Of a stretch of DNA of 64,000 nucleotides, positions 8,721 to 53,000 are shown one piece after another. The position numbers were made by a program, and so were the translations under genes. Origin of the DNA: Eunapius fragilis (Eukaryota; Porifera; Demospongiae; Spongillida; Spongillidae). The notes under the pieces were generated by a model, which did no database searches, was not told where the DNA came from, and saw nothing but the letters and a program-made list of their open reading frames with translations. Each line of letters begins with the position of its first letter. The first letter of the stretch is position 1. The stretch is from assembly GCA_963681505.1 (NCBI GenBank), contig OY811982.1:1837156-1901155 (forward strand), written 5' to 3'.

Positions 8721-9358
8721 GTAATGTTACCTCTGTGTGCGCGTGTGTTTGTGTGTGTATGTGTGTGTGTGTGCATGTGCGTGCGTATTAAAGCCCATGC
8801 ATGAATAACATAATCTCGAAAGTAAGATTTATTATTTTAAGCAGCCCAATTCACGAGTTGAATGACAATTCCATGTGGCTTCTACATGGATTCATTATAA
8901 AAGCACTTACACTTTAAAAAAAAAAGCTAACTATAAGTGGTTTAAACAGACTTTGCACTATGGGTTATAATTGACACTATCAGTTTAGCGACGGGTGTTC
9001 CGTGAAAATCCGGGCGGTTTTTTTTTTTTTTGTGACCTCAGCCTCACAATTAATGCTTGATATACAATAAGGGAATCAAGGGCTGTAGCCCCAAGTGCCA
9101 AAGCTTAAAGAGAAGTACTCCTTGCTGTCCAGGTGTCATACTTTTCTCTCCCGGTTGCAATAATATTGTCCTTGGCCTTGATGCTCTCAGTTTGTTCTTT
9201 GATATTGGTTAGTGTACGTAAGCAGGCTATTACCACCATTCCCTCCTATCAGAATGTCCGTTGCGCTCTAGCAGGGCAATGCTCGTTCAGTTGAGTGGTT
9301 TGCCTAAAAAAAATCGAGCGAGAAAATGTGCACGCATTTTGCACTGGTACACCGAATG

Positions 9359-9399
9359 GAAGCTAGCCCCACATTCCTCAGCCCCACATTCCTTGCGGT
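9359..9399 (+). repeat. Left terminal inverted repeat of the large transposon
   Basis: The core TAGCCCCACATTCCTCAGCC is followed by a second CACATTCC and TGCGGT. It matches, inverted and with small differences, 24879-24929. The weak match may extend a few bases outward (GGTACACCGAATGGAAG against CGTAACCGCGTAGAAG). Confidence 0.65.
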
Positions 9400-9477
9400 T
9401 TAACACTTGCATACTGAACATCGGCGCGCGCGGTCTAAGCTATATAGCTATATGTAGCGAACAAGGGAGATTCTAAC

Positions 9478-9627
9478 ATGGCTTCGGTACTTACTGCCAG
9501 CGATTTGAGTGCAAAGAAGGTTACGTTTGCGCAGCAGCTGAATACGTCCCTTCAAAGAACAAGCTATAACGAGAAATCGAAGCGGCACCGATGTGGCGCG
9601 CCAATACCAGTGACTCGCAGAGATAGT
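9478..9627 (+). CDS. Possible first coding exon of the transposon
   Basis: An ATG at 9478 opens 50 codons that reach a GTAAGC donor at 9628, exactly where the first 163-bp unit begins. TATA-like sequence (CTATATAGCTATATG) lies 25-45 bp upstream. The exon ends in phase 0, and the acceptor before 13394 on the far side of the array also starts phase 0. A splice across the whole 3.7-kb array is therefore possible. The peptide is basic and matches no family I know. Without a transcript this stays a proposal. Confidence 0.35.
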
Positions 9628-12600
9628 GTAAGCACTCCAGAGTTATAGCCTCACATTGCTATGCATGTTGTCTGTCAATACAGGCATGTACAAGTGAGCC
9701 TTCATTTCATGGAGCCAAGATGGCCGAATATCTTCATCCAGGAAGGGGTGTGGTCAAACCCAGTGATCCACTAAGACAGTGTGAGCACTCCAGAGTACTG
9801 CTGGTGTATAGCCTCACATTGCTATGCATGTTGTCTGCCAATACAGGCATGTACAAGTGAGCCTTCATTTCATGGAGCCAAGATGGCCGAATATCTTCAT
9901 CCAGGAAGGGGTGTGGTCAAACCCAGTGATCCACAGAGATAGTGTGAGTACTCCAGAGTACTGCTGGTGTATAGCCTCACATTGCTATGCATGTTGTCTG
10001 CCAATACAGGCATATAGATGAGAGCTTACAATAAATGGAGCCAAGATGGCCGAATATCTTCATCCAGGAAGGGGTGTGGTCAAACCCAGTGATCCACTAA
10101 GACAGTGTGAGCACTCCAGAGTACTGCTAGTGTATAGCCTCACATTGCTATGCATTTTGTCTGCCAATACAGGCATGTACAAGTGAGCCTTCATTTCATG
10201 GAGCCAAGATGGCCGAATATCTTCATCCAGGAAGGGGTGTGGTCAAACCCAGTGATCCACAGAGACAGAGTGAGCACTCCAGAGTATTGCTGGTGTATAG
10301 CCTCACATTGCTATGCATGTTGTCTGTCAATACAGGCATGTACAAGTGAGCCTTCATTTCATGGAGCCAAGATGGCCGAATATCTTCATCCAGGAAGGGG
10401 TGTGGTCAAACCCAGTGATCCACAGAGATAGTGTGAGTACTCCAGAGTACTGCTGGTGTATAGCCTCACATTGCTATGCATGTTGTCTGTCAATACAGGC
10501 ATGAACAAGTGAGCCTTCATTTCATGGAGCCAAGATGGCCGAATATCTTCATCCAGGAAGGGGTGTGGTCAAACCCAGTGATCCACAGAGATAGTGTGAG
10601 CACTCCAGAGTACTGCTGGTGTATAGCCTCACATTGCTATGCATGTTGTCTGCCAATACAGGCATGTACAAGTGAGCCTTCATTTCATGGAGCCAAGATG
10701 GCCGAATATCTTCATCCAGGAAGGGGTGTGGTCAAACCCAGTGATCCACAGAGATAGTGTGAGTACTCCAGAGTACTGCTGGTGTATAGCCTCACATTGC
10801 TATGCATGTTGTCTGTCAATACAGGCATGTACAAGTGAGCCTTCATTTCATGGAGCCAAGATGGCCGAATATCTTCATCCAGGAAGGGGTGTGGTCAAAT
10901 CCAGTGATCCACAGAGATAGTGTGAGTACTCCAGAGTACTGCTGGTGTATAGCCTCACATTGCTATGCATGTTGTCTGCCAATACAGGCATGTACAAGTG
11001 AGCCTTCATTTCATGGAGCCAAGATGGCCGAATATCTTCATCCAGGAAGGGGTGTGGTCAAACCCAGTGATCCACTAAGACAGTGTGAGCACTCCAGAGT
11101 ACTGCTGGTGTATAGCCTCACATTGCTATGCATGTTGTCTGCCAATACAGGCATGTACAAGTGAGCCTTCATTTCATGGAGCCAAGATGGCCGAATATCT
11201 TCATCCAGGAAGGGGTGTGGTCAAACCCAGTGATCCACAGAGATAGTGTGAGCACTCCAGAGTACTGCTGGTGTATAGCCTCACATTGCTATGCATGTTG
11301 TCTGCCAATACAGGCATGTACAAGTGAGCCTTCATTTCATGGAGCCAAGATGGCCGAATATCTTCATCCAGGAAGGGGTGTGGTCAAACCCAGTGATCCA
11401 CAGAGATAGTGTGAGTACTCCAGAGTACTGCTGGTGTATAGCCTCACATTGCTATGCATGTTGTCTGTCAATACAGGCATGTACAAGTGAGCCTTCATTT
11501 CATGGAGCCAAGATGGCCGAATATCTTCATCCAGGAAGGGGTGTGGTCAAACCCAGTGATCCACAGAGATAGTGTGAGTACTCCAGAGTACTGCTGGTGT
11601 ATAGCCTCACATTGCTATGCATGTTGTCTGCCAATACAGGCATGTACAAGTGAGCCTTCATTTCATGGAGCCAAGATGGCCGAATATCTTCATCCAGGAA
11701 GGGGTGTGGTCAAACCCAGTGATCCACTAAGACAGTGTGAGCACTCCAGAGTACTGCTGGTGTATAGCCTCACATTGCTATGCATGTTGTCTGCCAATAC
11801 AGGCATGTACAAGTGAGCCTTCATTTCATGGAGCCAAGATGGCCGAATATCTTCATCCAGGAAGGGGTGTAGTCAAACCCAGTGATCCACAGAGATAGTG
11901 TGAGTACTCCAGAGTACTGCTGGTGTATAGCCTCACATTGCTATGCATGTTGTCTGCCAATACAGGCATGTACAAGTGAGCCTTCATTTCATGGAGCCAA
12001 GATGGCCGAATATCTTCATCCAGGAAGGGGTGTGGTCAAACCCAGTGATCCACTAAGACAGTGTGAGCACTCCAGAGTACTGCTGGTGTATAGCCTCACA
12101 TTGCTATGCATGTTGTCTGCCAATACAGGCATGTACAAGTGAGCCTTCATTTCATGGAGCCAAGATGGCCGAATATCTTCATCCAGGAAGGGGTGTGTCA
12201 AACCCAGTGATCCACAGAGACAGAGTGAGCACTCCAGAGTACTGCTGGTGTATAGCCTCACATTGCTATGCATGTTGTCTGCCAATACAGGCATGTACAA
12301 GTGAGCCTTCATTTCATGGATCCAAGATGGCCGAATATCTTCATCCAGGAAGGGGTGTGGTCAAACCCAGTGATCCACTAAGACAGTGTGAGCACTCCAG
12401 AGTACTGCTAGTGTATAGCCTCACATTGTTATGCATGTTGTCTGCCAATACAGGCATGTACAAGTGAGCCTTCATTTCATGGAGCCAAAATGGCCAAATA
12501 CCTTCATCCAGGAAGGGGTGTGGTCAAACCCTGTGATCCACAGAGACAGAGTGAGCACTCCAGAGTACTGCTGGTGTATAGCCTCACATTGCTATGCATG

Positions 12601-13155
12601 TTGTCTGCCAATACAGGCATGTACAAGTGAGCCTTCATTTCATGGAGCCAAGATGGCCGAATATCTTCATCCAGGAAGGGGTGTGGTCAAACCCAGTGAT
12701 CCACTAAGACAGTGTGAGCACTCCAGAGTACTGCTAGTGTATAGCCTCACATTGCTATGCATGTTGTCTGCCAATACAGGCATGTACAAGTGAGCCTTCA
12801 TTTCATGGATCCAAGATGGCCGAATATCTTCATCCAGGAAGGGGTGTGGTCAAACCCAGTGATCCACTAAGACAGTGTGAGCACTCCAGAGTACTGCTAG
12901 TGTATAGCCTCACATTGCTATGCATGTTGTCTGCCAATACAGGCATGTACAAGTGAGCCTTCATTTCATGGAGCCAAAATGGCCAAATACCTTCATCCAG
13001 GAAGGGGTGTGGTCAAACCCTGTGATCCACAGAGACAGAGTGAGCACTCCAGAGTACTGCTGGTGTATAGCCTCACATTGCTATGCATGTTGTCTGCCAA
13101 TACAGGCATGTACATAGGAGCCTTCATTTAATGGATCCAAGATGGTCGATTATCT
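9605..13155 (+). repeat. Left array: about 21 direct copies of a 163-bp unit
   Basis: Near-identical units recur every 163 bp, seen for example at 10313, 10476, 10639 and 10802. Each has a constant block CCAAGATGGCCGAATATC and CCAGGAAGGGGTGTGG. Each also has a donor-like GTGAGT or GTGAGC and, 66 bp later, an acceptor-like TGCCAATACAG. Two unit variants alternate (GTGAGCCTTCATTTCATGG versus GAGAGCTTACAATAAATGG). Because 163 is not a multiple of 3, the long open frames that cross two units change frame at each unit and are not genes. The last unit decays at 13110-13155. Confidence 0.95.
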
Positions 13156-13393
13156 TATCTTCCACATGACTGAGTAAATTAATACCTGTGTTCTACTGCC
13201 TCAGATTGACTTTTTTTTTCTCATGTCATATTTTTACATGGACTGCAAGATGTCAGTCAGACTTATTTGTTGATTACAGTGAATAGTTTCTTGTGACTTT
13301 CTTTTTTTTTTTAATGAGTACATGTGTGCTTTAAGCTTATGGATTGTGGGTGATAATCACTAATATAGATGTTTTGATTTTTATTGCGGGTAG

Positions 13394-16300
13394 CTGGTGG
13401 GAGTGATTAGCTCTCCTGTGGTGTTTCCCGCAACCTGCTCTGCTAATACCGATCCGTGCAGCACACCTTCCTCCATTGCAAGTGGTACAGTTACTTCTTT
13501 CTTCTTTGTTCTCTTGTTGGTTGCTTCGCTGTGGAGCCCAGTTATGGTATTTGCTTGTTTTTGGAATGACGAGTTTCAATTGAATGATGTAATCTATTTC
13601 GTGTGTGGTGTCCCTGGAATGAAGCCAAAGCGCAAGCATTGTATTGATCACGAACGGCTCGTTGCTGTTTTGATGCAGAAAGGCATTCCGCTGCCAAATG
13701 CGTCACGATCTGCCCCAGATGGATACTGGTTTTTGGTTGCCCAAGCACTATCCGGCTTCAAGTACCCCTCTTCAAAGTATACCTATGCAGTGTATAAGTA
13801 TTGGTTGAGTAACAGGAATCGAATGCAAGCCATTGCACAGGAGGACGCAATAGATCACAAAACACATGCAGAGGTATAGTTTCCTGCAATAGACATGGTA
13901 CCTTATTGTAATCATGCATAGGCCACATGCACCACCACTGAAATGGTGAAAATGACAACTCAGAGTGCGATGATGAGGTATATAAGGCTTTGCGCCGATT
14001 TTTTTTAAATCATGCTATTTTTTGAAGCCACTATATTGTCTATGCCATCAACCATATGATTCAGAAAGGTAGGGTTGTCGTATTATTTTTTGGTTCCTAT
14101 ATCATACATCATTTATTGTCATTAGGTTTATGATAGGCTGTGACTATTGTGCTGAATGGTACCATGGCAGTTGTGTGGGTGTTACACCTGAAGAGGCGAA
14201 GAAGATTGATGCTTACAGATGTCCAAAATGTGTATCACAGTCCATTGATTCACCATTGTATACAGATGGTTAGTGATAAGAATACTTGCCCTTGAAATGT
14301 ATTTAGTGAACCTTATATATGTAAATAAAGGAATAACTGAATCCCATTCTGTAAGAGATGGAAGCATGCACAATCAAGAGGTAGATTAAACACATGTTTT
14401 GTGCATCTTGTTCCCTAGCTGGTATTGTTTTTATTTATAGCTACCAGCATTGATAGAGGAGGGTGCAATGTCAATTTTGCAATTACAGCCTACAATCACA
14501 GATCTGGAGTTGCCGCCATCAGGAGATTTTTCATTGAGCAGAGTTGTATGGGATGCGAACTTTGCAGGAGAAAAAGTATCCCCATCATGGGTACATCTTT
14601 GTGCTGCCGGGCTGTCAAAGCTCAATCAGTTCTGTTCCTTTGCCTTTAGGAGGCACTGGAAAAAGAAAACCATTTCTCGTAAATCTTCAATATTTGTTTT
14701 CAAGGCTAGAGCCTACTGCACATTTTCAGGCTGCAATGTATCTGCAATGCTTTTAGTAAAATCCTGTGATGTTGCTAGTGATGAAGTGACCATACATGTT
14801 GAATGTTCAGGACGTATATGCCACACAATTGGTGAAAAACATGCCCGTCGTTTTAGTCATTGCATTAGAAAAGACCTGTACAAAAGTTTCCAAGATACTC
14901 ATATTGCTCCATCAAAAGAATATCTCAATAGATTACTTAAACTGACTGATGAACAGTTTGCTGCTGGAAATAGAGATGCTGTAGGTGCTACTACTTCAGT
15001 TTTGAAGAAGATATCTTCAGAAGCAAGATTGGTGCAACAAGAGCATACCGACCTAGTTACATCTCTCACTATCCTTAGGAAAAAACTAATAGACCGTCAA
15101 GACAAGGCACAAGTCTTAAACAAAAAGATTACTCCTATTCAAGGATTCATACAGTGCATCCAAGCTCACCCATTTTCTGTGATATGCTTTAATGACACTA
15201 GTGTTCGACTGTACCATGAAATGGCTAAGTATAGCCCACTGTTTTGTGATGCAACTGGCACCATTGTGTCAGTACCAAAAATAGACGGTGTTAAAACAAC
15301 AGTGTACTATTATTCAATTGTGATAAAACATCCTGTCGATGGAAAAGCTCCTATCCCAGTTGCAGAACTAATCACAAATGACCATACGGTTCTTTCATTG
15401 TGCTACTTCATGGAGACCTTTCGTCGTGCAGAAGGACTGGTATTTGGATTTAGTGCAATAACTAATCCATTGCAGTTCATAATAGACCGCAGCATGGTGT
15501 TGCTGCTTAGCATACTCCACGTATACAATTCAGAATCCTTGCAAGATTACCTTGAACGCACATTCAGAATCGTAACAGGATCAGGAACTGTTAATGATTT
15601 CAGAAAGGTGTCACCACATGCATGTACCAGTCATGTAATGCACTCAGCTAGCAAGAACTGCAAAAAGTGGTAAGCAAAGCTTTTTTCAAAATTAAATGAT
15701 AGTACATCCTTTTGAAAGTTGCAACTTTATTAGTATAAAAATTCCTAATATTCCACCATAATGACATGCTTATGTAAGAGTGCACAGCACATCTACAAGT
15801 TTAATGGATCTATATGCATAGCATCAATTAAATGTACTGTTGCTCATATTTTTCTCCTTCTTATGACATTTATTTGCACACGACCATGAGAAGGAGGTTT
15901 ATCTCTATATCATGATTTATACCATGCTGGGTATACGTAGATAGGAACATATAAGTAGTTCAGGTGTCTCAATACCTCCACACAGGTTTGGAAAAGAACA
16001 ATACAAGTTTTCGATGTTTTGTTTTTCTACCCTCGTAAATAGTTCAACACTGCGAGAGCTAGTTAGAAGGGCTGGACTACTTAAAGTACTGTATTGCTCA
16101 GAAATTGAATCTCCTACATTCAAACGGGCATACAACTCAATAGTTGATGATATAAACTCCCTGAACACTTATGATATTATCCAAGTTGAACTACCAGAGA
16201 CTGGACCAAGTGATCATGACAGCATATATGAAGAAAGTAGCTCTTCAGAAGACAATAGTGTTCCAGTCAATCCTTTTACAGAATACTTCAAGCGCAAAAC

Positions 16301-17242
16301 TGCCTCTGTTTGTGTTCCTTCTGACGGAGAGATAAAGAATACCTATTTTCAGCCTCAGTATTTTGAAGTGATTTTAAACAAATGGTTGCCCATGGCACCT
16401 TTTTGGACTTGTTTATTACTGGGTAGGTATTTTCTGTACTAATTGAATGCATGTTCATCACTTCATGTATTGTACAGGTGATCTTTCTCGACACAAGGTG
16501 GAAAAACCTTTGAATCTCTCCATCCTGGTAAAGAAATATTGTACATTAACACATGTAAAATGTATAGATTAAGCCATTTGAGATAGATTTTATAAATCTA
16601 AAAATACTGATATATTGATGTCTATTTTGCTTCTTTTTAAGCATCACCTGACAAAGACATCAGGGACCATTGAAGCTTGGAACTTCATTCTAAAAAAAAT
16701 TGATCACCCACAGAAACACATTAGACCAGATGTTTTTATACAACAGCATTGCGATATCATTGTTGCACGACAACGCCAATTTTTTGATGATCTACAGGAG
16801 CCATTTCGAAAAAAAATTAAGGTTCTGCACATTCATCTACATGTACATAGTTTTGACTTTGTCATACCTTTTAATTGCAGCAATCACTGAAAAGAAAAGC
16901 ATCTCGTCCTTTGAAGGAAAAGTGGGCCAAACGAAGTTGCAATATGAAGAAAAGGTCCAAATTCGGTTACTTTCAGAAAACATTGGAACCCCTGCCCTAC
17001 AAGATTGAAAGGTAATTTAATTTAATGGGTTGTGCAGATTTTATGTCATATATTCCAGTTCTGAAAATGTAGCAGTCTCTGATAGTGATGACCAGTCTCG
17101 GTACCAGTTAAACACTTTGTGTGATGCATTGCATTGATAAAACATATCTTATCAGTTTACTTGCACAACCAACCACAATTATAGACCAAGAGGAAATCAT
17201 AAAAAAGGAAGTTTCCAGGTCTCCATTACGGTTTTGTTATGA
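13394..17242 (+). CDS. PHD-finger and RNase H-fold transposase gene (provisional model)
   Basis: Likely exons: 13394-13873, about 13922-13977, 14028-14068, 14126-14268, 14441-15669, 15986-16422, 16478-16527, 16642-16821, 16881-17011, 17059-17100, 17185-17242. The PHD finger is built from [12 protein letters not shown] and [13 protein letters not shown], then CPKC. The long exon 14441-15669 carries D (FCDATGT, codon 15248), a second D (IIDRS, codon 15485) and a C-x2-H motif (CTSHVMH). A Glu candidate (TSGTIEAW, codon 16672) lies in a later exon. This order fits hAT/MULE/KDZ-type transposases with an insert before the Glu; I cannot fix the family. Problems are an in-frame TGA at about 13938 before the PHD, a phase mismatch into 14441, and a possible pair of 1-nt shifts near 14570 and 14750. 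Confidence 0.65.
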
Positions 17243-17364
17243 ACACTGTGTTATTGAACTATAGTAAAATGACTGTTTTTTTTTTCAGACCTTGTCCATC
17301 ACACAAATGTGTTGATTTAGAAATGGTGAGTTCATGTACACCATATTTCCTTTGTAATTATATA

Positions 17365-20300
17365 ATGGCTCCAAAAAATTTAAAAAAAAAGAGTTCAGGT
17401 GCATTACTGCATGTGCCCAAAAGACTGAACAAAGGCATAAAGGGCAAGTCCAATCTCTGCTGGCTGAACTCAGTTTTGCAGGCCACCTTGAGTACTCCAC
17501 TACTACCTCTGTTAAAAGGTACAGTGCTGTGGAGTTTTAATATAAGTACATTTACTTTTGTTTTTTTTACAGCTGCCACCTGTGCTAAGCGGCGTACATC
17601 CATCCAGAAGTGTTTTATTGATATTATGGACCAGCTTCAGGGTTCTACATGTGACCCTTGTGACTCCACACCACTTGCTGTAAGATTAGAATGAATAAAT
17701 AATACATTTACAAAAAGTAAACCATAAATGACAGAAGTTGCTCTGTAAAGAAGAAAAATCACTGCCAATTGGATTTCAAAATGATTGTATAGAGGGCATA
17801 TCGGCTTTGATAAACAAACTGTTTTCTAAGACAGATGTAAGTCTTTTGCTGTACATGATGACATTATGAAGACTTTTGCTTAGGAAATAGAGAAAATGTT
17901 CTCAACATTGGTACACAGAACAGCTGAATGCTGCTTAAAGGTGATCAGTTATATTTTGTGGTTGTAACCATCATGCTATCATACTTTATTGTGAAAGAAT
18001 GTTAATGAAACAGAATCATGGACAATACTTACATGTGGAGTGGGGAACAGTTGTGAAGAAAAGAGTATATATAATCTAATGATGAGCGTACTCGATGCAA
18101 AAACAACACTGGATCACATGCAATTGTCTGAAGTGTAAGCAGTGTTCTAAACTCACTGCAAAGACAATACAGTATCATTCACAGGTTTTGTAACATTTGT
18201 GAAAATCGACTGATTGTGCAACAAGCTGAAGTTCAGACGCCCTCAATTCTGATTATTCATTGTGACAGGGTATCAGATGATGGCCTCTCATGGAAAATTA
18301 AGAGTAGAATTACAATTCCAAGGTTTGTTTTATTTTTGTCCTTAGATGCCATCAAAATTAGATACTGAGTGCTTCATTGCAGTTCTTTCACACTGTCACA
18401 TAAGAGCCTTGAAGAAGATACTGAATACCAACTTAACTCAGTTGTGGTATGCCAACATGTGTACACATGTAAGCTCATACTAACAGCAGAAATTTTTATA
18501 GGTTCACCATGGTGATCACCCATATCATGGCCACTGTAACATACGTTTTGTACTTGTTCTATCTGATGTAATAATAATCATGTTGCAGATACCTGTTATG
18601 TACACAGCAATAACAAGTGGATTCATTACAATGATGCAATCGTATCCGAAATGTTATCTGAGCAATTCATTTCATCCAATGAAATAAAGGTAGAGAATGT
18701 TTTTAATGTTATGAACGTAATGCATCATCCAATAATGCAGGAAAATGTATGTCTTGCTGTATATACATCACCAATGAAGATTGTAAGTAAAACTAATTAA
18801 TGCATTTCCTATTCATAATGCTGTATTATGTCTATAGCCACTTGTGAATAAGGCGACATCAACTGAAGAATTCATGTCTTGCTGTCACAAATTTGTAAAC
18901 ATAATAATTATGTTTACAGTCATTCATATTAAAAATTATATTTTATACAGAATTACAAAGGTTTGCCATTGAATGCAGAAGCTGAGGTAAATTAAATGCT
19001 AACTGCTAGTTTCAACATTATAATATTATATATTTGTTTTGTAGCTCAGCCAGAGTATTCCTGAGCCACACTCAAGGTTTCAGTTGGATGGAAGTGACTT
19101 AAGCCTTCTAGCTTCTGAATCTTGGATTAATTCAAGAGTAGGAATTTAATACAAAATATAAATGTATTGTTGTACTAGCTCTTCAAACCCTAAACGTTTT
19201 ACAGATCATTGCAGCGTATATGGAGCTTTTGAAAACTTCAGCAGTGACAGTAATTTCACCATTACTTGTCTTATTTTTATAACCTGTTTGGGATGATATT
19301 CAGGAACAACGGAAGGTGATCTCTTTTGATCCTACATTTCTGCCAACCTTTAGCAGTAGGGGATACCAGAGCATCAAACACTACACCAAGGTACCATTCT
19401 TACAGACTGAATAAGTGGTTCTTAATATGATGTAATTTTAATTAGGGATGCAATATTTTTGAGCATGATCTCATGCTTTTCCCAGTACACAAGCCACAAC
19501 ATTGGAGTTTAGTGGTTAGTTGTTGCACAATAAATAATAATTTGTAACATGTTCATATCTATATGCAGGTTGTTTACCCGAAATTAAAATTCATACTCTG
19601 CATCGACTCTTTGCACTTCTCCAATGTAGATGAAGTGAACTGGATATGGTTAGATTTTATGTGGTCCACAGGCACTCAACTCAATTTATTCATATCTTCT
19701 AGGATGTATCTGTGTAGCGAAAGCTACAACCAATCAAGTCTACAAATTTCACCTTGTGAATGGAAGTATTATGATTCAGTAAATATGTATAAATACAATT
19801 TAACACGTCATCTAAACTTTATCATTGTTATTGCTAGAAGGATGCTCCAATTCAGAAGAATACAAATGACTGTGGGGCATTTGTGTGTTTTGTAAGTGCA
19901 TATAGATACCCTTCTAGAGTATAGATTTTATAACTACCTATAGGCAGCACGGCTGCTTGTGGAGGGATTACCATGCCTGCATACACAGGTAAAGTTAGAT
20001 AAATCAGTAACAGTATGAGACATACGTAATTCTGTGTCAAAGGAATCAGTAACAAGGTTTAGGTTACAAATGGTGTATGAACTATCTAATGGCAGCCTAT
20101 ACCCTTTGCAAGGTGACGAGGTATGTGCTGTAATGATCTAATCTACTATTTTGATCATTGACGGTGTTTAATAAAATCTAAGACCAGCGACAGTTTAGAC
20201 AGCTGCCCATACGATGACCCAAAAGAAGACCTAACATCTACATGTAGTGATGAGAACAATGATCACAGTGATAGAGAAAACATTGATCTGAGTGGCAGTA

Positions 20301-20961
20301 ACTCAGAATCAAGCTGTACAAATAATGATGTACAAGAATTCCTAATTCCAGAACATGAAAATACACCTGATCCGAATGACATATGTGGTCTTAAATGGGG
20401 CAGAGACCACTATATTCGATTTCTTCCTTCTCTTAAAAGACAGTCGTACACGTGAGTTAGGGTTTGATCAGTTTTCTGTGAAGGTTTACTATTTGTATGG
20501 CTATTGATTTCAGAGATGCTCAGTGTCCTTTTTCAAGAACATTCATAAGAAGTGTAGTGAAAGAGATGGAAGTAAGCATTAACTGATGGCTCTTCTAGTC
20601 AGTGAATGGCATTTCAGCCCACGATAAGGAATATTCTAAAAGGGAAGGTATGCACTGAATATCATGAACACATACAACTTGTCGAGAAACTGACCAAGCA
20701 GGATTGTGGCTGGCCTTTACAGCACTGCTACGATATGGTAACTGAATTCATTTTATTTGGGCACATAATGTTCCATTTAAGCTGTAGGTATCAGAGATAT
20801 TTTGGTACCTACAAGAACTGGAAAGTGACGTGAAATCGACAGCTATGGTATGCACTACACGAATAAATCGATTCATTGTTTGGCCTGAGGTAAGAAATCA
20901 AGGTAACTCCCCACCAGTGAAAATAATCATACTGTCATCCAGATCATCACTACCCTCATAA
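17365..20961 (+). CDS. USP deubiquitinase fused to Ulp1 SUMO protease
   Basis: Start ATG 17365. Exons end at 17518; then 17573-17679, 17735-17836, 17884-17940, 17998-18134, 18185-18322, 18383-18446, 18502-18535, 18589-18689, 18741-18782, 18838-18894, 18951-18986, 19045-19137, 19205-19249, 19304-19390, 19446-19514, 19569-19648, 19703-19778, 19838-19891, 19944-19988, 20043-20120, 20183-20451, 20514-20571, 20618-20647, 20702-20737, 20788-20961. All 26 join in phase (740 aa). USP parts: Cys box NLCWLNSVLQA, QNDCIEGISALINKLF, FCNIC, and His box GHYTCYVHSNNKW with YND. Ulp1 parts: WINSRIIAAYMELL, His in HWSLVV, Asp in CIDSLH, Gln and Cys in PIQKNTNDCGAFVC. An acidic tail follows. USPs remove ubiquitin and Ulp1 removes SUMO. 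Both active sites look complete. The gene starts 122 bp after the transposase stop. Confidence 0.85.
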
Positions 20962-21335
20962 TGAAGAAATATGCAATAGATCATAAGCAAGCCGTTGGAT
21001 ATTATCTTCAACACACACTACCCATTTAATTGTATTTTTAATGGGACAAATACTGCCACTCTACTTTAAAAACAGTTCCTTCCGTTTTTTGCTTTAAAAT
21101 ATCTCATTCAGCTTTCTTTGTCACTGGTTTTATACTTGCATAACAAATCACAAATGTTAATAAATTCATAAACAAAGAAATACAAAAAACAACTAAAATG
21201 TGTTCATTCCAACAATACATGAAAACAACATAGTAATAAACGAGGCAATACAAGACCTCATTGTAAGCGATTACCTCTTCCCCACACATATGTGCCATTC
21301 CTATGAAAGGCGAGGGCATGGCTGTAGTGGATAGT

Positions 21336-24300
21336 CAACATGCATAGCAATGTGAGGATACACCAGCAGTACTCTGGAGTGCTCACACTGTCTCTGTGGA
21401 CCGCTGGGTTTGACCACACCCCTTCCTGGATGAAGATATTCGGCCATCTTGGCTCCATGAAATGAAGGCTCACTTGTACATGCCTATATTGGCAGACAAC
21501 ATGCATAGCATTGTGAGGCTATACACCAGCAGTACTCTGGAGTGCTCACTCTGTCTCTGTGGATCACTGGGTTTGACCACACCCCTTCCTGGATGAAGAT
21601 ATTCGGCCATCTTGCCTCCATTTATTGTAAGCTCTCATCTATATGCCTGTATTGGCAGACAACATGCATAGCAATGTGAGGCTATACACTAGCAGTACTC
21701 TAGAGTGCTCACACTATCTCTGTGGATCACTGGGTTTGACCACACCCCTTCCTGGATGAAGATATTCGGCCATCTTGCCTCCATTTATTGTAAGCTCTCA
21801 TCTATATGCCTGTATTGGCAGACAACATGCATAGCAATGTGAGGCTATACACCAGCAGTACTCTGGAGTGCTCACACTATCTCTGTAGATCACTGGGTTT
21901 GACCACACCCCTTCCTGGATGAAGATATTCGGCCATCTTGTCTCCATTTATTGTAAGCTCTCATCTATATGCCTGTATTGACAGACAACATGCATAGCAA
22001 TGTGAGGCTATACACCAGCAGTACTCTGGAGTGCTCACACTATCTCTGTGGATCACTGGGTTTGACCACACCCCTTCCTGGATGAAGATATTCGGCCATC
22101 TGGGTTCCATTTATTGTAAGCTCTCATCTATATGCCTGTATTGGCAGACAACATGCATAGCAATGTGAGGCTATACACTAGCAGTACTCTGGAGTACTCA
22201 CACTATCTCTGTGGATCACTGGGTTTGACCACACCCCTTCCTGGATGAAGATATTCGGCCATCTTGGCTCCATGAAATGAAGGCTCACTTGTACATGCCT
22301 GTATTGACAGACAACATGCATAGCAATGTGAGGCTATACACCAGCAGTACTCTGGAGTGCTCACACTGTCTTAGTGGATCACTGGGTTTGACCACACCCC
22401 TTCCTGGATGAAGATATTCGGCCATCTTGGCTCCATGAAATGAAGGCTCACTTGTACATGCCTGTATTGGCAGACAACATGCATAGCAATGTGAGGCTAT
22501 ACACCAGCAGTACTCTGGAGTACTCACACTATCTCTGTGGATCACTGGGTTTGACCACACCCCTTCCTGGATGAAGATATTCGGCCATCTTGGCTCCATG
22601 AAATGAAGGCTCACTTGTACATGCCTATATTGGCAGACAACATGCATAGCATTGTGAGGCTATACACCAGCAGTACTCTGGAGTGCTCACTCTGTCTCTG
22701 TGGATCACTGGGTTTGACCACACCCCTTCCTGGATGAAGATATTCGGCCATCTTGCCTCCATTTATTGTAAGCTCTCATCTATATGCCTGTATTGGCAGA
22801 CAACATGCATAGCAATGTGAGGCTATACACTAGCAGTACTCTGGAGTGCTCACACTGTCTTAGTGGATCACTGGGTTTGACCACACCCCTTCCTGGATGA
22901 AGATATTCGGCCATCTTGGCTCCATTTATTGTAAGCTCTCATCTATATGCCTGTATTGGCAGACAACATGCATAGCAATGTGAGGCTATACACCAGCAGT
23001 ACTCACACTATCTCTGTGGATCACTGGGTTTGACCACACCCCTTCCTGGATGAAGATATTCGGCCATCTTGGCTCCATGAAATGAAGGCTCACTTGTACA
23101 TGCCTGTATTGACAGACAACATGCATAGCAATGTGAGGCTATACACCAGCAGTACTCTGGAGTGCTCACACTATCTCTGTGCATCACTGGGTTTGACCAC
23201 ACCCCTTCCTGGATGAAGATATTCGGCCATCTTGGCTCCATGAAATGAAGGCTCACTTGTACATGCCTGTATTGACAGACAACATGCATAGCAATGTGAG
23301 GCTATACACCAGCAGTACTCTGGAGTACTCACACTATCTCTGTGGATCACTGGGTTTGACCACACCCCTTCCTGGATGAAGATATTCGGCCATCTTGGCT
23401 CCATGAAATGAAGGCTCACTTGTACATGCCTGTATTGGCAGACAACATGCATAGCAATGTGAGGCTATACACCAGCAGTACTCTGGAGTGCTCACACTGT
23501 CTTAGTGGATCACTGGGTTTGACCACACCCCTTCCTGGATGAAGATATTCGGCCATCTTGGATCCATGAAATGAAGGCTCACTTGTTCATGCCTGTATTG
23601 GCAGACAACATGCATAGCAATGTGAGGCTATACACCAGCAGTACTCTGGAGTACTCACACTATCTCTGTGGATCACTGGGTTTGACCACACCCCTTCCTG
23701 GATGAAGATATTCGGCCATCTTGGCTCCATGAAATGAAGGCTCACTTGTACATGCCTGTATTGGCAGACAACATGCATAGCAATGTGAGGCTATACACCA
23801 GCAGTACTCTGGAGTGCTCACTCTGTCTCTGTGGAGCACTGGGTTTGACCACACCCCTTCCTGGATGAAGATATTCGGCCATCTTGGTTCCATTTATTGT
23901 AAGCTCTCATCTATATGCCTGTATTGGCAGACAACATGCATAGCAATGTGAGGCTATACACCAGCAGTACTCTGGAGTGCTCACACTATCTCTGTGGATC
24001 ACTGGGTTTGACCACACCTCTTCCTGGATGAAGATATTCGGCCATCTTGGCTCCATTTATTGTAAGCTCTCATCTATATGCCTGTATTGGCAGACAACAT
24101 GCATAGCAATGTGAGGCTATACACCAGCAGTACTCTGGAGTGCTCACACTATCTCTGTGGATCACTGGGTTTGACCACACCCCTTCCTGGATGAAGATAT
24201 TCGGCCATCTTGGCTCCATGAAATGAAGGTTCACTTGTATATGCCTGTATTGGCAGACAACATGCATAGCAATGTGAGGCTATACACTAGCAGTACTCTG

Positions 24301-24690
24301 GAGTGCTCACACTATCTCTGTGGATCACTGGGTTTGACCACACCCCTTCCTGGATGAAGATATTCGGCCATCTTGGCTCCATGAAATGAAGGTTCACTTG
24401 TATATGCCTGTATTGGCAGACAACATGCATAGCAATGTGAGGCTATACACTAGCAGTACTCTGGAGTGCTCACACTATCTCTGTGGATCACTCACTGGGT
24501 TTGACTACACCCCTTCTTGGATGAAGATATTCGGCCGTCTTAGCTCCATTGGAGGCGCACGCTTCTACGGAGAAGATATGCATGCCTCTATTGGCTGACA
24601 AACGAGCATATACACCAGCAGTACTCTGGAATGCTAACCGGTTTTGGTCAAACCCCTTCTTGGATGGGGGTGGTCAGAATCTTGTAGTTC
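21336..24690 (-). repeat. Right array: about 20 inverted copies of the 163-bp unit
   Basis: The same unit as in the left array, reversed, so the two arrays could fold onto each other. The variant with GTAAGCTCTCATCTATATG is more frequent here than on the left. One unit is shortened near 23005. The outermost unit (24540-24690) is strongly diverged. Confidence 0.95.
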
Positions 24691-24878
24691 TTCTAGTCCA
24701 TGTAGATGTACGTAGCTGCATTGGCATACAAGTGACCGATCCGATATACTCCAGTACTTGTAGGGTATACACTTGCATATATATATATACGCTGTCTTTT
24801 ACTCAACTGTTCTGTTCCTTCAACGTTTCGATAAGTTATATTTACGAACCGGCCGCTCATTATCAAAATAACAATCTG

Positions 24879-24929
24879 ACCGCAGGAATGTGAGGCGAAT
24901 GTGAGGCTGAGGAATGTGGGGCTAACTTC
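24879..24929 (-). repeat. Right terminal inverted repeat of the large transposon
   Basis: The reverse complement reads TTAGCCCCACATTCCTCAGCC, then two further CACATTC blocks and TGCGGT, matching 9359-9399. Flanking bases on the two sides show no clear target duplication. Confidence 0.6.
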
Positions 24930-25042
24930 TACGCGGTTACGAACTGTTCGTAACGGGTGAAGTGAAAATTTATGGACAAAACAATTCAATAGCAACAGGA
25001 CTCTTCAGTACCAATTTTGAAGCAATTTGGACACTCCAGCAG

Positions 25043-25126
25043 AACTTTTTATTCTGTCCTTTAGATCCCCTACGGTAGATACCTTTGTATGTACTGTAGG
25101 GATCTAAAGGACAGAAATAAAAATTA
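25043..25126. mobile_element. Short palindromic element
   Basis: The arms TTCTGTCCTTTAGATCCC and GGGATCTAAAGGACAGAA face each other around a 30-bp centre. It lies just outside the right end of the large transposon. Family unknown. Confidence 0.55.
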
Positions 25127-25183
25127 TCATATAAGGAAATTGTGTGGTACGACATGTTGAAAATAGAAAGTAGTTTGCGTTAA

Positions 25184-25314
25184 TTGGCGGAAGGTAGGTT
25201 ATCAACCGTCATCTGATAGCGTATGTGACTATATATGATAATAGCCCACATATGTGATAATAGCTCACATCGCTATCAGGTGGGTACAAATCTTGGTATA
25301 GTACCTTCCGCCAA
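25184..25314. mobile_element. 131-bp MITE-like hairpin
   Basis: It begins TTGGCGGAAGGTA and ends with the exact inverse TACCTTCCGCCAA. Inside are further inverted pieces (TGATAGCG and CGCTATCA). No convincing target duplication flanks it. Confidence 0.6.
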
Positions 25315-25437
25315 AACGAAGCGTTCAGACATTATAGCGATTCAAACCAAGAGCACTTTTATAACTTTAGAATTCACTTTAGATGCTGCATATGGTCTTG
25401 AGCTATTTTCATGTGCATGTGTTTATATGTATTTGGC

Positions 25438-25467
25438 GAGAAAATTTCTTTATAGACAAATTTTCTC
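25438..25467. repeat. Small perfect palindrome
   Basis: GAGAAAATTT and AAATTTTCTC are separated by 10 bp next to TTTGGC, resembling the end of another small element. Confidence 0.5.
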
Positions 25468-25555
25468 ATGAAATTTTCCCAAATTAGTATTATAATCATA
25501 GAACTGTTCTAAAATACATGCTCATTTTATAACTTATCCACACATGCCATTTTCA

Positions 25556-30000: not shown

Positions 30001-31271
30001 CTTGCTGTCATACTGTGTCATGTTATTAACTCTACTGATAGTACAAGTAAATAAAAACATTCTCTACGAGAACGTTGGTGGGATATAGGATTTGATTATG
30101 ACATTGGTGGTGTAAAAAGCAAGGAAACAAGGTCTTATCAGAAGGGAAAATGTCATAGTCCTATATTTAGCACATTTCTAGGGCATGTGTTGTTTGTGTG
30201 CTAAATATAGGACTATGACATTTTCCCTTCTGATAAGACCTTGTTTCTTTGCTTTTTACACCACCAATGTCATAATCAAATCCTATATCCCACCAACTTT
30301 CTCGTAGAGAATGTTTTTATTTACTTGTTTTCTTAATTTTTTTTCATACCCAAGTAACCCAATGACTGTTGTATGGCTGCTTCTCCCTTTTCATTTCTTT
30401 CAATCCAGATATACTTTTATCTTTAGATACCGTAATTAAATTATACAAGACATAGGAGGCTGATAGTCGATTTTTTATCAAAGTATTATATTATATAAAA
30501 GCAAGTCCTCCAGCCGATTCTGAAGCTATTGGTGAAATTTTCATCGCTTAGAAATGTTCCTGTCCTGAGTTATGCGTTGCCAAGAAGAAGGAGGAGAAGA
30601 AGAAGAAGACGACCCGCCCCTTGTTCCGAGACTGGGTACGAGGACGGGCAGTACACTCTTGTTCTCAACAACCACGCGGTTCAGCGACATGAAACAAAAA
30701 CGAAACTACTCATTTTTGACTTCTAGATCGATTGCTAAAACAAGTTACACGATCCGATCGTCGGGAGTGTTGTTACAGACGGGTCGCGTTTTTAATGACA
30801 TTCATAGTCGGGGTCAAATCCTATATGGAAGTTTCTAACGAAACTTCCGATATTGGTTAACAGAATTTGAAGTTTGAAGAAATATTGCCTAATTGACTGA
30901 TCAACATGTGCGGATATGTAACAAAAATAGATGTATTCAATTCAAGTTGTGCCTATTAGCCTGTTAATGCAGTGTTACTTGTCATCTGAGCTCCCTGAAA
31001 TTGGAATCTCAAGGGACAATGCATGGATCCTTGCTTTATTATCCAAAGAGTTAATTTTGGGAAGAACAGGGAGGAAGGGAATGATACATTCAAATTTAAT
31101 TTGTTCATGAGGAGTGCTTTTGGTTAATAAGCCAAACTTCCATTACAGACTTCCTCACAATGTGATAGATAACTTATGTGTGTGCTGTTCGTTTATTGCT
31201 GTGGTGATTTGTTGTCTTTCACCACAGGTACTACAGCACCATTCAGTCCTTGCCCAAACTGGACCAACAGG
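26154..31271 (+). CDS. Plexin copy 1: cytoplasmic exons 17-27 (first half), frameshifted
   Basis: Exons: 26154-26296, 26604-26740, 26873-26932, 27236-27377, 27468-27875, 28004-28070, 28376-28470, 28546-28653, 29322-29487, 29676-29888, 31228-31271. The first GAP half carries the arginine motif [14 protein letters not shown]. Exon 21 (27468-27875) includes [16 protein letters not shown] and the inserted RhoGTPase-binding domain ([18 protein letters not shown]). Exon 24 has the second arginine segment [11 protein letters not shown]. In exon 25, copy 2 reads 27 bases where copy 1 has 26 (around 29388-29396), so the remaining GAP helices are out of frame and a stop follows at 29702. Exon 26 still encodes a good GAP segment in its own frame ([14 protein letters not shown]). 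Exon 27 is cut by an insertion after 31271. Confidence 0.85.
26475..26549. repeat. (CA)n microsatellite
   Basis: Interrupted CA dinucleotide run in intron 17 of plexin copy 1. It creates artificial Val/Cys open frames on the - strand. Confidence 0.9.
27034..27076. repeat. (GT)n microsatellite
   Basis: About 20 GT repeats in intron 19 of plexin copy 1. The corresponding intron of copy 2 has a TGTA/TG-rich run at 52317-52402. Confidence 0.9.
30043..30328. mobile_element. Hairpin MITE, family A copy 1
   Basis: A nearly perfect 286-bp palindrome in intron 26 of plexin copy 1. It begins ACAAGTAAATAAAAACATTC and ends with the inverse. Inner arms include GTTGGTGGGATATAGGATTT and GGACTATGACATTTTCCC. 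Two relatives lie at 52415-52639 and 58002-58283. Confidence 0.8.
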
Positions 31272-33132
31272 GTCCGTGTAAGAAACCGCCACTCAATATT
31301 TCAATTGTTCAATTTATTGGAATTTGCAATTTTGACGCACTAATTGCCGATTTTTGATGATATTTGGAATTTTCACTACGTGAATAATTGATCTAGCGAG
31401 GTTTTTTCAAATTTTCAAAATTTCAATTAAAAATTGGAAATTTGAAAATTTGAAAAATGCTTCGTGCGGACATTGTTTAATTCTCCAATTTATTCCCTCT
31501 CACGATCACAGACCCTGTGGAATGGAACCGAAGCGTTGACACCGGACACTCCCCTCTGGGAACGAGGGCATATTACAAGCTTAAGTGCCATGATTATGCG
31601 TGCGTAGTAGTATAGCAGCTGCCGCCACACCGTTCCATGTGCTTAGCCACACTTCGGCCCACACGACATTAGCCGACAGCTCTTTGTGCTTGGCAAGGTA
31701 ATAGTAGCCACAGATATTATCACTAATTAATACTCGATCGCACAGCTGAGCTTGCTAGAATATCGTGCGCTTTACAGTTACAGACGGCTCAGTTATGTTG
31801 AGCTATTTTGTTAAACATTTCCCGCTACTTTTGCGTGCTGTAACGTTTAATAGTACTAGTACGCAGCCAATGCAAATTGCGATTCAAGCTACAGTCTACC
31901 CTCGATATAGTCCGGGCTACGGGAACCCCCAAAATAGCGGACTGTAGGACAAACGGATAGTAGCGATGCGAAGCTTAGCTTACGAAGGGTTGGTTGGCAA
32001 GAGAAAAATAGCGGACATTATCGCGGATGGACTGTATCGAAGCAGACACTATCGAGGGTAGACTGTAGTAGCTTGAATTAATAAGTGTGAACACAACCCA
32101 GTTGATGTAGGGCCCCGTAGCTGGAGGTCTCAACTGATCATGACAGCAACCCTGTTTGCCCCCCCCCCCCCCCGGCGTGGGAGGGTGTTATGTCGGTCCC
32201 TTATGTGCACATTTCTTGCCCTCGGATTGTCCTGTTTCTAAACTGGTGCCATCACAAGTCCTGTTTATCAATATTTTCCTTTTCCCATTGCCTGTATTGC
32301 CTGTACATGTATGTCATAAATTTGTGCAATCAATGCAAGTATGTGTACCCAATTTTAAAACTCAGGTCAAAGTTAAGTTCTGTCTGTCCCCCTGAATTCT
32401 ATGTGGCAAGGTAGCCAGCCACACCAGCCCACTGTTTCATGTGAGCCAGCACCGCGTGCTGGAAGTGAGGTAGATGTGGGTTTTAAAAATCTGCTACAAC
32501 TAAATTACCACAAAAAAGTGGTCACCATGGTGACCACACCCCCACTCCCACCATGCATGCAAGTCAATGGCACCAGTGCGTACATGACCCTATCCCAATG
32601 ACCACAAAGTTCACCAATGGTGCAAGCAAGCTTCTCTGCCACATGTCTCTGGGTATGTCTGCAACACTTTCAGAGACTGCATGGAAATAAGAATGCGTGT
32701 GTCGATGATGTGCATTAGTGAGCTGAGAATGTGTGCAAAATGTAAATGGATAAAAATTGATCATAAGAGATAAGCACACCTACTACCACACATACACACA
32801 CTCACAAAGTAATGCCCCCACTAAAAACTTTGTGCAAGACCCACTTGTTGCATCCCTCCATCTTGATCATGAATTTTTAAAGCAGATCTAGACAATCTGG
32901 TGAATGTTCCTTGTTGCCAACAGGGTAGGTGTGTACATACAGCCTCTTCTTTGTCACCAGGCATATATGGTGTAAACTACGATGGATTGTCCAATTAGCA
33001 AAACAGACAACAGGAGACGGGGCAATTCTCTTGTGCACATGTGAGAATGGGGAACCCAATACTAAGGCTGGTACCCAATGCTGAACAAACGTATGGGAAT
33101 GACCCCATAGTGATGGCATTGGGTTCCCCATC
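31272..33132 (+). repeat. Left arm of the foldback element
   Basis: It matches 35875-37559 inverted. Once the 176 bp of a nested insertion are removed, both arms are 1685 bp. Landmarks are the AT-rich AATTTTCAAAATTTCAATT near 31410, a C run at 32160 and GTGGTCACCATGGTGACCAC at 32518. Open frames in the two arms mirror each other, which reflects the inverted repeat and not genes. Confidence 0.9.
31892..32065. mobile_element. 174-bp pogo/Tc1-like MITE with TA duplication
   Basis: It begins CAGTCTACCCTCGATA and ends TATCGAGGGTAGACTG, flanked by TA on each side (31890-31891, 32066-32067). The right arm has the empty site (CAAGCTAGTAGCTTG as read on the - strand, near 36935). CAGT-type ends with TA targets fit pogo/Tc1-mariner elements. 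Confidence 0.85.
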
Positions 33133-37559: not shown

Positions 37560-37567
37560 CCAACAGG

Positions 37568-40720: not shown

Positions 40721-41439
40721 CCAGTTCAACACACCAGTCCAGTACATAATACACTGTATGTACTGTGTTGTATGTGCTCGACTGGTATGTTGTATGAGGG
40801 GGGAGGAAAGGGGTGGCGCATTGCCCCTGCACCTTTATTAAAGTGGGAGGGTGGTGGTGAGGAGTACTAACTGGTATACCATCCGCAGAATTTTTAAATT
40901 TAGGTGAGATCCCCCCCACCCCCACACATACACACACACACACACACAAACTCCTAGCTCTGAAGCCTAGGTGAAGCCATATGGGTATATATGAAGCCAT
41001 GTGTGTGAATAGCTCAGCATCCAGTGGCCCAGTCCTTACAATCTATTGATCACTGCCACTATCAAGGCTTCCTTCGGGTAAAAAGAGACATGCAAATCTA
41101 CAGACCCCTAGAAATGGACCATGTAGATACAAAAAAATGCGCGCACACAAGCACACACACAATTTGCTATGACCATATGCAAAGTCTCCCATTTAAGCCA
41201 TGTAGCACCATGGAATGTAGAAATATGTGAGGAGGTGACAAGCAGATAGGCCGGCTAATAGCTGTACTGTATGTAGGACTCAGGAACTAGTAAGACACAC
41301 CCACCCATAATCAGAGCACTTGGTGTCATTTAAAGTAGGTTTCTCGATCACAGTGGCCACAGTGCCACATGCAATCCAGTAGGTACATCATACCCGTCCA
41401 AGTGCATGCAACAGTACATACAACACACCTACATTCTTA

Positions 41440-49974: not shown

Positions 49975-50016
<42 letters not shown>

Positions 50017-53000
50017 TGATTATGTATTAAAGCCCACGACAGCATCGCGAAAGTAAGATTACAATATTATAGGAGAAGTTAGTCTCAGAATATATTATTT
50101 TGAGATGAGTTCCAAAATATACGCTCATTTTATAACTCCTAATTATATTTCCACCGATGCTATTTTCATGGAAACTATCCCCTATGTACATGTATTATAA
50201 ATGATGTATAATAAAATGCATATGAAAATGAAGCTTTGGACGATATGCAGCATCTGAAATAATAATGGTGAAGCCAATAAAGCTGTATAAATTACAGAAG
50301 TGCATCATTCAGGCTTAACACACACTGCATGTTTTGAGGAATATATGCTTATTCTTGGTACATGAAGGGGGTGTCTAAGTGGTTACCACCATGTGGGGTG
50401 CTGTTTGTCACAGGAACTGCTGTCTGTTATAGGTCTGTTATAGCCATGTACAATAGGGCCAGATGTCACAATTAGAACCTTTTATCCCCAATTCTTATAA
50501 CTTTGCAACAAATAGTGGGATATATTAAAGTTTGAATTCTTATTATTGGCATTGTTTACCTGTCGGTGCTAAATTATACATGGTGCAGAGTTTTAAGTCT
50601 TGTCCTCCTGTACATAGATGGGTTAGGGCATATGGTTTGCAAGAATTCTTGCTAATTCCAATTAAGTGATTGCCCCAACTTTTGGGACAAACATTTAATA
50701 GTTGTGTGATAGGAAGTAGAAAGAATGAATGCAAACCAACCGTTCCTATGACTTTATTCATCCATGTACAGAGAAGGACCACTCTTAACATACACTCTGC
50801 ACCATGTATATTTTAGCACTTATGCCTGCAAATAATCATTTGTCCCACAAATTGTCCCAAAGTTTTAAAAATTGGTGTTATAGAGCAACTACAGATTCAT
50901 ATAAAGCCATCACAACAAGTCGTTTTATACAAAACCATTACTACATGTTGTATTGAGCCATCACTATGGGTTTTATGACAATTTTTTCTGAAATTACACA
51001 AATACTGCTATGTATATGCTAGTCACACTGATGTTAGTTTAACATTTCATTTCCAATCGTCCTTCTTTAAGGAGCATGGTCCTTACATAAGTACGATGTT
51101 GAAGTAATAATTCTATCTATATGTATGCTGCGTCGAAATCATTAATAAAAAAAGACCGATATTCCATCACTAAAATGGGTGGACCAAGTTGTTAGAATCA
51201 GTATGAACTAGCCGTTCTCGTCAAAGCTGGAAAAGGAGCCTTTGTACAATCGGAAAATGAAATAAACTGCTCTTAGTTTTCATGATAATATACATGTAGT
51301 TCAAAAATGCACACGCTTAATTAAGGATGATGAGCTGGACATCATAAACATTAAAAATATTTTTAATGTTAAAATTCCCTTTCATAATTCTACCCCTCCT
51401 CCCAGCCATGACTTTTCTTATCCATCCTCCCCGGCACTGGCTTTCATTGTTCCTCCTCCCAGCCTTCACTTTCATTGTCATTGTACCTCCTTCTCAGTCT
51501 TTACAGAGCTGCAGACAGAACTACAGGATGTGGTCAAAGTCCAAGACAAGAACTATCCATACAGAGACTTCAGGTCCTTTGCTATGAAGTTCCTCTTCCC
51601 CACTGCTGATGGTGACCATCCCATCCTGAGGCCAGTAAAGGTGACCTATGCTTGTGTGCAATTCCAACCAATCATGTGATGTGCATTGACCCATGGACAA
51701 GGGGTGTGCCCAAAACTTATGCTGATTGGTTGAGCAGTTTATCAAAACAGATTCCTGTTTCACATTTCGGGGTAAAAAATGTTGGAAATTAACAAGTATA
51801 GTGTGCACACACTCTCATACACACACACCACACACACACACAAGGATATTAACAACCTTTTAAATATAAATAGTGCCTATTCTGCATTGACACTCCTAAT
51901 CTTTGCAGTTCCCATGCACTGTGGAGCTAAACGAAGCCTTAAGATCATTGCAGCTCTTTGAACAGCTGATTATGGACAAGCAAGTTTTGCTGACTGTGGT
52001 GCGCACCCTTGAGGAACAGCAGGGCAGGTTTACCCTGCAAGACAGGTTGGTTCTCGCTGGGTAGGGACATGTCCTCTTCCCTCTATTCTGTACCTGCCCA
52101 TATCAGGCTTTCCGTAAAGCTGCCTTTCCAAGTTACTTAACTATTTTCTTCTGGCAGATGCAATGTGGCTTCACTACTGCTGGTGGCCCTACAGGACAAT
52201 TTGACATATGCAACAGAGTGAGTAGTGATACATGTATTGATAACTAATAAATTAAATGATCGGTTCAAATAATATAGTCCATTGTGATGTATTAATGCAT
52301 TGATGCCATCAGTGCGCATATTTGTGTGTGTATGTGTGTATGAATGTGTGTATTTGTGTGTGTATGTGTGTATGTATGTGTGTATGTGTGTGTGTGTGTG
52401 TGCAAATTAAAAAAGATATAAAAAACATTTTCTCTGAGAAATTTGGGGGTATATAGGAATGGTGGTGTAAAAGTAATATTAGCACTTCTGTATAGCTGCA
52501 CATACATTTTACGTTGCTAATAATAGAGCTTTAAATTTTCGTATCATCATTGATCCCTTGTTCCCTTCCATTTTACACCAACATTGCTTTCAAATCCTAT
52601 ATACCACCAACTTTCTCAGAGAGAATGTTTTCAATATCTTGTGATATTCATGATATCGCACAAATCCTATATGGAACCTACTAATAGGTTCCGATAATGT
52701 CAGTGGGCAAGGGGTAAATGTAACTAGTTAAGATCAAACACATTTTACATTTCTAAGCTCTTGGTAGGAATAAAAACCAAATCAATTCAACACAAAAATG
52801 GTTCAAACTTGATACCCAAATATGGTAATGTGGTCTTGCCCCCAGCATACTTCTGGAACTGCTAAAGACTCACATGACAGCATCAGCTACTAGGGGTAGC
52901 CCCAACCTTCTCCTTAGAAGGACAGAGACGGTTGCAGAGAAGCTTCTCTCCAACTGGCTCTGCTTCCTCCTCTATCCTTATGTCAAGGTATGTTGTGAGA

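Follow-up and report, generated by a model that had tools for sequence, protein, structure and literature searches.

The 64,000-nucleotide window analyzed here, positions 1,837,156 to 1,901,155 of contig OY811982.1 (assembly GCA_963681505.1) of the demosponge Eunapius fragilis, carries two tandemly duplicated plexin-like genes and, within the span of the first of them (copy A), a large transposable element. Between two inverted arrays of a 163-bp unit, the element contains a gene that reads as one spliced polyprotein, in which a PHD finger, a transposase, a ubiquitin-specific protease (USP) domain, and a SUMO protease domain of the Ulp1 type follow each other in this order (Table 1). The element belongs to a multicopy mobile family, and the combination on one element gene of a chromatin reader with predicted erasers of both ubiquitin and SUMO appears to be new.

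Table 1. Coordinates of the element, of its parts, and of the matching site in the second plexin-like gene (positions in the window; TRF, Tandem Repeats Finder)
Feature	Position	Strand	Remarks
Whole element	9351..24937	+	15,587 bp; ends in common with other copies
Left terminal inverted repeat	9351..9391	+	Begins ACCGAATGGAAGCTAGCCCC; 88% to right end over 41 bp
Left array	9644..13156	+	TRF: 163 bp x 21.6, 96% matches
Single gene model	13619..20961	+	36 exons, 1,613 aa, no internal stop
Linker exon, taken as skipped	13922..13977	+	56 nt; from copy alignment; presumably skipped
PHD finger	14028..14268 (exons 14028-14068, 14126-14268)	+	Pfam PHD E 9.3e-9
Transposase domain	14448..16821	+	D/D/CxxH/E; main exon with 106 genome matches
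USP (UCH, C19-type)	17392..18894	+	Pfam UCH E 4.9e-28; NLCWLN Cys box, GHYTC His box, YNDA
Ulp1/SENP (C48)	18951..20120	+	Pfam Peptidase_C48 E 3.2e-21; HWSLV, IDSLH, QKNTNDCG
Right array	21336..24549	-	TRF: 163-bp unit as in left array, x 19.8, 94% matches
Right terminal inverted repeat	24897..24937	-	Begins ACCGCGTAGAAGTTAGCCCC on minus strand; ~41 bp
Matching site without element, plexin-like copy B	50060..50109	+	Likeness to copy A stops at 8829 and resumes at 25506

The gene model, which is predicted from DNA alone, was read from the sequence and then refined with two divergent families and with the indels of other copies. All of its 35 introns are of the GT-AG type, with a median length of 55 bp. 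An early version including the linker exon was abandoned after the first PHD exon had been found; the window copy of this exon is one base short of an in-phase form of 57 nt, copy C16 is ten bases short, and six of the family's remaining copies exceed the window copy by at least one base. An early splice model running through the residues MAPKNLKKK into the USP was also given up, since several copies have indels at this point, where the sequence also allows an intron. Changes in the length of a poly-A run, found in several copies, lie within intron 17326-17391 and need not break the frame from transposase to USP. The Pfam, PDB, and genome queries with the USP-Ulp1 portion started at MAPKNLKKK, residues which are intronic in the final model.

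A PHD finger, a D/D/CxxH/E transposase, a USP, and an Ulp1 had been proposed for this gene in the first-pass annotation, and all four were recovered, the PHD, UCH, and C48 domains scoring above the Pfam cut-offs and the D/D/CxxH/E pattern being recognized by eye. The closest solved PHD fingers are those of PHF2 (2.8e-20), BPTF, and PHF8, which read H3K4me3 via aromatic residues; at the matching positions the finger of the window copy has Y, M, and W, by eye. The USP domain is closest in the PDB to USP46 and USP12 chains, and the Ulp1 domain to SENP2 (9.3e-28), followed by SENP1. For the transposase exon, AlphaFold run without an alignment gave a mean predicted local distance difference test score (pLDDT) of 36.9, too low for the model to be of use.

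The limits of the element are the points where likeness to the other copies ceases. The element had initially been placed at 9359 to 24929; its presence there stood, with the true limits 8 bp farther out on each side. Both ends open with ACCG followed by a conserved terminal inverted repeat (TIR), the core of which is common to all three families distinguished in the genome, namely family A, to which the window copy belongs, and families B and C. The inverted arrays announced around the gene were found by TRF on both sides and in opposite orientation to each other. Their G+C content is about 47%, versus 35-38% between them (2-kb windows, 14001 to 21000). The motif AAGATGGCCG occurs 19 times in the left and 18 times in the right array, and CCTCACATTG 22 and 18 times, respectively. 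Most array units contain AAGATGGCCG, which is found in the family C unit as well and resembles a YY1-type site; the CCAAGATGGCCG inside the 163-bp unit may be a site of this kind.

The arrays are not a constant feature. In family B the left array is built of a 173-bp unit, and one copy has a right array with a unit of 153 bp; in family C an array, also with a unit of 173 bp, is confined to the left side. The notion of constant arrays was rejected, the family B units being at best weakly similar to that of family A (7 of 300 shuffles scored as high for one B unit and 10 of 300 for the other; all unit and terminal-repeat shuffles preserved base composition only). The A and C units have the islands TATAGCCTCACATT and CAAGATGGCCGA in common, and their best local alignment scores 42, the top shuffle reaching 25 (0 of 300 as high). 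An 11-mer of the right TIR, AGCCTCACATT, recurs in the A (163-bp) and C units. For the right TIR, 4 of 300 shuffles scored as high against the A unit and 2 of 300 against the C unit, and 9 of 300 did so for the left TIR against the A unit; for the right TIR against the B units the counts were 48 and 83 of 300. These comparisons are modest evidence that the arrays of families A and C multiply a putative transposase-binding core. Arrays multiplying such a core are reported for Galileo in the available part of the Tetris paper (PMC4079207). The repeated ends are a case of satellite-like arrays that belong to a mobile element and not to its surroundings.

The genome was searched over 219 Mb in 24 contigs. 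Matches to the main transposase exon fall into 64 clusters when merged at 5 kb, and ten further copies at other loci were examined. Additional copies with the same ends, which the first-pass annotation had recommended looking for, do exist: at least one matching end was present in eight of the ten fetched stretches, copy C5b having none and copy C23 a weak one only. With as many as 2 mismatches allowed, the terminal motif is found at 241 places in the genome, against 0 for the reversed control. One hundred of the 241 were listed, all of them exact and on contigs C1-C8; among the matches listed, 25 neighboring pairs less than 30 kb apart face inward and 0 face outward. A transposase match lies inside 17 of these 25 pairs, and the eight pairs without one may be non-autonomous. 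Short inward pairs lacking a transposase match (C4:2844646-2845454, C7:3186285-3188045, and C6:2685434-2686701) are likely non-autonomous relatives.

Perfect 9-bp target duplications flank eight of 18 end pairs overall. They are present at four of seven two-ended copies of the window family (C16, C8, C4, and C15b), at none of the single end pair of family C, and at four of ten further pairs drawn from the 25 inward pairs, four others of which were already in the earlier sets; one more of the ten has an 8-bp duplication and another a single mismatch. The target-site duplication anticipated for the element was accordingly found in the family and not at the window copy itself. Misassembly of two neighboring arrays, raised as a possible artifact, is unlikely, as independent copies on other contigs share ends, arrays, and gene. 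In copy C16, all 4842 coding bases are matched without indel or stop; frameshifts or stops occur in C8, C1, C5b, and C23, and in C3 a single stop lies close to the C terminus. Since C16 is intact and differs from the window copy at only about 11 coding positions, activity of the family is apparently recent.

Assignment to a class was approached by exclusion and by likeness. The transposase gave nothing above the Pfam cut-offs, with weak DUF3958/DUF6279 matches only. KDZ/Zisupton, the first guess, was dropped, no match to Pfam KDZ (PF18758) being present in the element. Canonical Mutator was not supported by sequence either: Pfam MULE (PF10551) is absent from the element (its 45 genome matches include none at the window locus), and hhalign against each of two Mutator proteins from the same genome gave a probability of 0.2%, within the 0.1-0.9% obtained with 20 shuffles of the first protein. 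A search for relatives in viral and prokaryote contigs returned pattern matches, none of them confirmed. The order of the catalytic residues, D/D/CxxH/E, which is recognizable by eye in the element, fits Mutator-type transposases.

It is the Rehavkus group that offers the nearest description. In the available sections of its accounts, Rehavkus has 9-bp duplications, terminal repeats of 26-400 bp, a PHD finger, and a minisatellite, with arthropod and annelid hosts (PMC6446971), and in Rehavkus-1_TC of Tribolium the inverted termini contain a unit of 164 bp (PMC10218199). The present element has a PHD finger in the transposase protein, 9-bp duplications in its family, and TIRs of 41 bp with minisatellite arrays adjoining them. 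It differs from Rehavkus in that neither USP nor Ulp1 appears in the available sections of those descriptions (PMC6446971, PMC10218199), in having about 20 units per arm versus mostly 5 and 8, and in its length of 15.6 kb versus 9.5 kb. Judged by these described features, the element looks, and probably works, like Rehavkus. Both inverted arms made of the same tandem unit, the mark of Foldback elements, occur in the window family and not in family C. Foldback Tm1 and Tetris likewise have inverted ends of tandem units, with duplications of mostly 9 bp in Tm1 (PMC3169594) and of 8-10 bp in Tetris (PMC4079207). Unlike in the present element, the transposase of Tm1 is a Mutator enzyme of the Phantom type and has a FLYWCH finger, and for Tetris no coding copy was found; USP and Ulp1 are absent from the description of either, as far as the available text of each goes.

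With its ends, its target duplications, its multiple copies, its domain order, and an intact, constrained composite frame, the element is very likely a cut-and-paste DNA transposon of the Rehavkus/Foldback kind that is autonomous or was so until recently, with the composite protein as proposed. That the transposase instead represents a separate, undescribed superfamily, in which duplications of 9 bp, a PHD finger, and ends made of arrays arose by convergence, would agree with the failure of any Pfam family to reach its cut-off and with a profile comparison no better than shuffles; considering how many of these traits, down to a unit of nearly the same length, are found together in Rehavkus, and that the catalytic order is of the Mutator type, we regard such convergence as unlikely.

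Each part of the composite protein has a precedent. In the available text of PMC2836005, Ginger1 and Mutator elements have Ulp1, some with a PHD finger, on the transposase protein; the transposase of Ginger1 is, unlike the present one, similar to Gypsy integrases, and USP together with Ulp1 is not part of the description there. The same source lists the Trichomonas protein XP_001314237.1, in which a Peptidase C19 (USP-type) domain stands beside a transposase, the latter being of the transposase_11 type and Ulp1 or PHD not being mentioned in that text. Helitrons with VTD or OTU domains also carry deubiquitinases, activity being reported for VTDs, and differ as rolling-circle elements with other protease families and no DDE transposase (PMC9741609, available sections). 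The initial statement that no described element has the full set thus held for the literature searched, which excludes Repbase reports and most subscription journals and in which PHD, transposase, USP, and Ulp1 were not found in one element; it has to be qualified by the precedents of Rehavkus, Ginger1/Mutator, Trichomonas, and the Helitrons. Protease terms were looked for in PMC12730594, and none was present.

The domain set is kept in the two further families. Their transposases are 57% and 50% identical to that of the window copy, the order PHD, transposase, USP, Ulp1 is the same, and both have a full PHD finger (YCVC and YCIC exons, by eye). The D, D, CxxH, and E motifs of the transposase are identical in the three families save for one residue between C and H, HACxSH and TIEAWN being kept across all of them, as are the His, Asp, and Cys motifs of Ulp1. 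The USP Cys box reads NLCWLN in family A, YTCWMN in family B, and RLCWRN in a sister copy of family C. Between the window copy and copy C15a, 103 of 4833 exon positions and 101 of 2437 intron positions differ, and the ratio of nonsynonymous to synonymous differences (pN/pS) is 0.11 for both the transposase and Ulp1 (Fisher p 0.0009 for the latter) and 0.25 for the USP (p 0.0004). In this one informative pair, purifying selection on USP and Ulp1 is evident from the ratios. Comparison with copy C8, which has less power, points in the same direction (USP 0.27, p 0.04; transposase 0.42, p 0.09; Ulp1 0.26, p 0.37); copies C16 and C3 are too near the window copy to inform the test, and in the decayed copies C23 and C5b the ratios of the transposase, the USP, and Ulp1 range from 0.33 to 0.89.

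When the genome was searched with USP-Ulp1 and 79 of 348 candidates were scored, 140 matches were obtained, forming 39 clusters. Of these, 32 are no farther than 10 kb from a transposase match; three of the remaining seven are beside a listed element end, and four are isolated single-exon matches. As to a stand-alone USP-Ulp1 gene at conserved host loci of related species, which had been named as evidence to the contrary, the candidates scored in this genome gave those four isolated matches. The two proteases might nevertheless be pieces of host genes taken up by the element and carried along without a role in transposition, as are the gene fragments in Pack-MULEs. Mutator elements tend to pick up host gene fragments (PMC6446971, available text), constraint on the USP is weaker than on the transposase (0.25 versus 0.11), and the USP Cys box is lost in the first family C copy, the sister copy retaining it. 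However, the same domain order persists in three families at 50-57% transposase identity, both proteases are under purifying selection, and the catalytic motifs are retained, which makes a passenger role quite improbable. A domesticated host gene lying by chance between satellite arrays, as the open frame and the absence of a target duplication at the window copy might suggest, is rejected for the family as exceedingly improbable in view of the ten further copies (eight with at least one matching end), the perfect duplications at eight of 18 end pairs, and the decayed copies.

Several points weigh against the reading as a functional composite transposon. The window copy has no target duplication (CACTGGTAC/TACGAACTG), nor have C15a, C5a, and C2f, and six of the ten further pairs are imperfect, four of these with at least two mismatches and no 8-bp match. 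The linker exon is frameshifted in the window copy. The array arms vary from left-side only in family C to other arrays in family B, similarity to Mutator was sought and not found, and USP/Ulp1 matches within 10 kb were counted for only 32 of the 64 transposase clusters (a lower bound, as the search reads each of the short exons separately). The selection result leans mainly on the pair of window copy and C15a, in which the N-terminal part (0.34, p 0.10) and the PHD finger (0.24, p 0.16) are not significant, and to this is added the USP Cys box lost in one family C copy. Activity is a prediction for every domain. One might also object to the plexin comparison, since part of the stretch absent from copy B lies outside the element and has, at 25378-25427, a 52-bp inverted match in copy B.

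In the mechanism proposed for the composite transposon, the transposase would bind the ends of about 41 bp, and perhaps the TIR-like core repeated in each 163-bp unit, bring the ends into synapsis, and excise the element, which would be inserted with a 9-bp stagger. The PHD finger would tether the complex to active chromatin marked by H3K4me3. USP and Ulp1 would take ubiquitin and SUMO off the transposase, repair proteins, or silencing factors, by which transposition would be favored. This composition of the gene suggests an element that counteracts the protein-tagging machinery of the cell or turns it to its own use. More tentatively, the PHD finger might direct insertion to H3K4me3 chromatin and the proteases might strip tags from the silencing or degradation machinery, as an anti-silencing device retained while at least three families diverged; this is conceivable, if rather doubtful. 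Comparable roles have been considered by others: transposition proteins may be shielded from degradation according to the Helitron authors (PMC9741609), and an action on DNA repair was suggested by the authors on Ginger (PMC2836005), each in the available part of the text. Ulp1, OTU, VTD, and C19 domains have been reported in transposons one or two at a time. With predicted ubiquitin and SUMO erasers on one open transposase frame, under purifying selection and in near-identical intact copies, the question whether tag removal is needed by transposons, and from which targets, becomes directly testable.

The plexin-like genes, copy A at 3340-38614 and copy B at 45066-58283, have TIG, plexin RBD, and cytoplasmic domains and are collinear in pieces with 75-93% identity, so that they provide a natural comparison for insertions. 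Because exons for a TIG domain lie to the left of the element and exons for plexin cytoplasmic domains to its right, it most likely sits in an intron of copy A. Apart from the inverted match mentioned above, no counterpart of 8829-25506 of copy A was seen in the matching region of copy B. The stretch absent from B exceeds the element by about 1.1 kb and does not form a clean empty site; the comparison supports an insertion in A or a loss from B. Two short palindromic sequences resembling miniature inverted-repeat transposable elements (MITEs) lie to the right of the element, at 25046-25123 and about 25186-25312, and may explain the extra length.

Copy A has a second insertion at 31270-37561, with inverted ends of about 1.7 kb (98.0 and 99.5% identity) and CCAACAGG on both sides, the empty site being found in copy B at 56632-56639. 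Further palindromic MITE-like repeats are located at 30043-30328, 58002-58283, 52555-52642, and 55219-55305; the first two are about 80% alike and lie at different positions of the paralogs, and the third matches parts of both. Outside the element, the window also contains an array of (TGACGC)n and a minisatellite of 22 bp (60587-60701 and 41412-41641, TRF).

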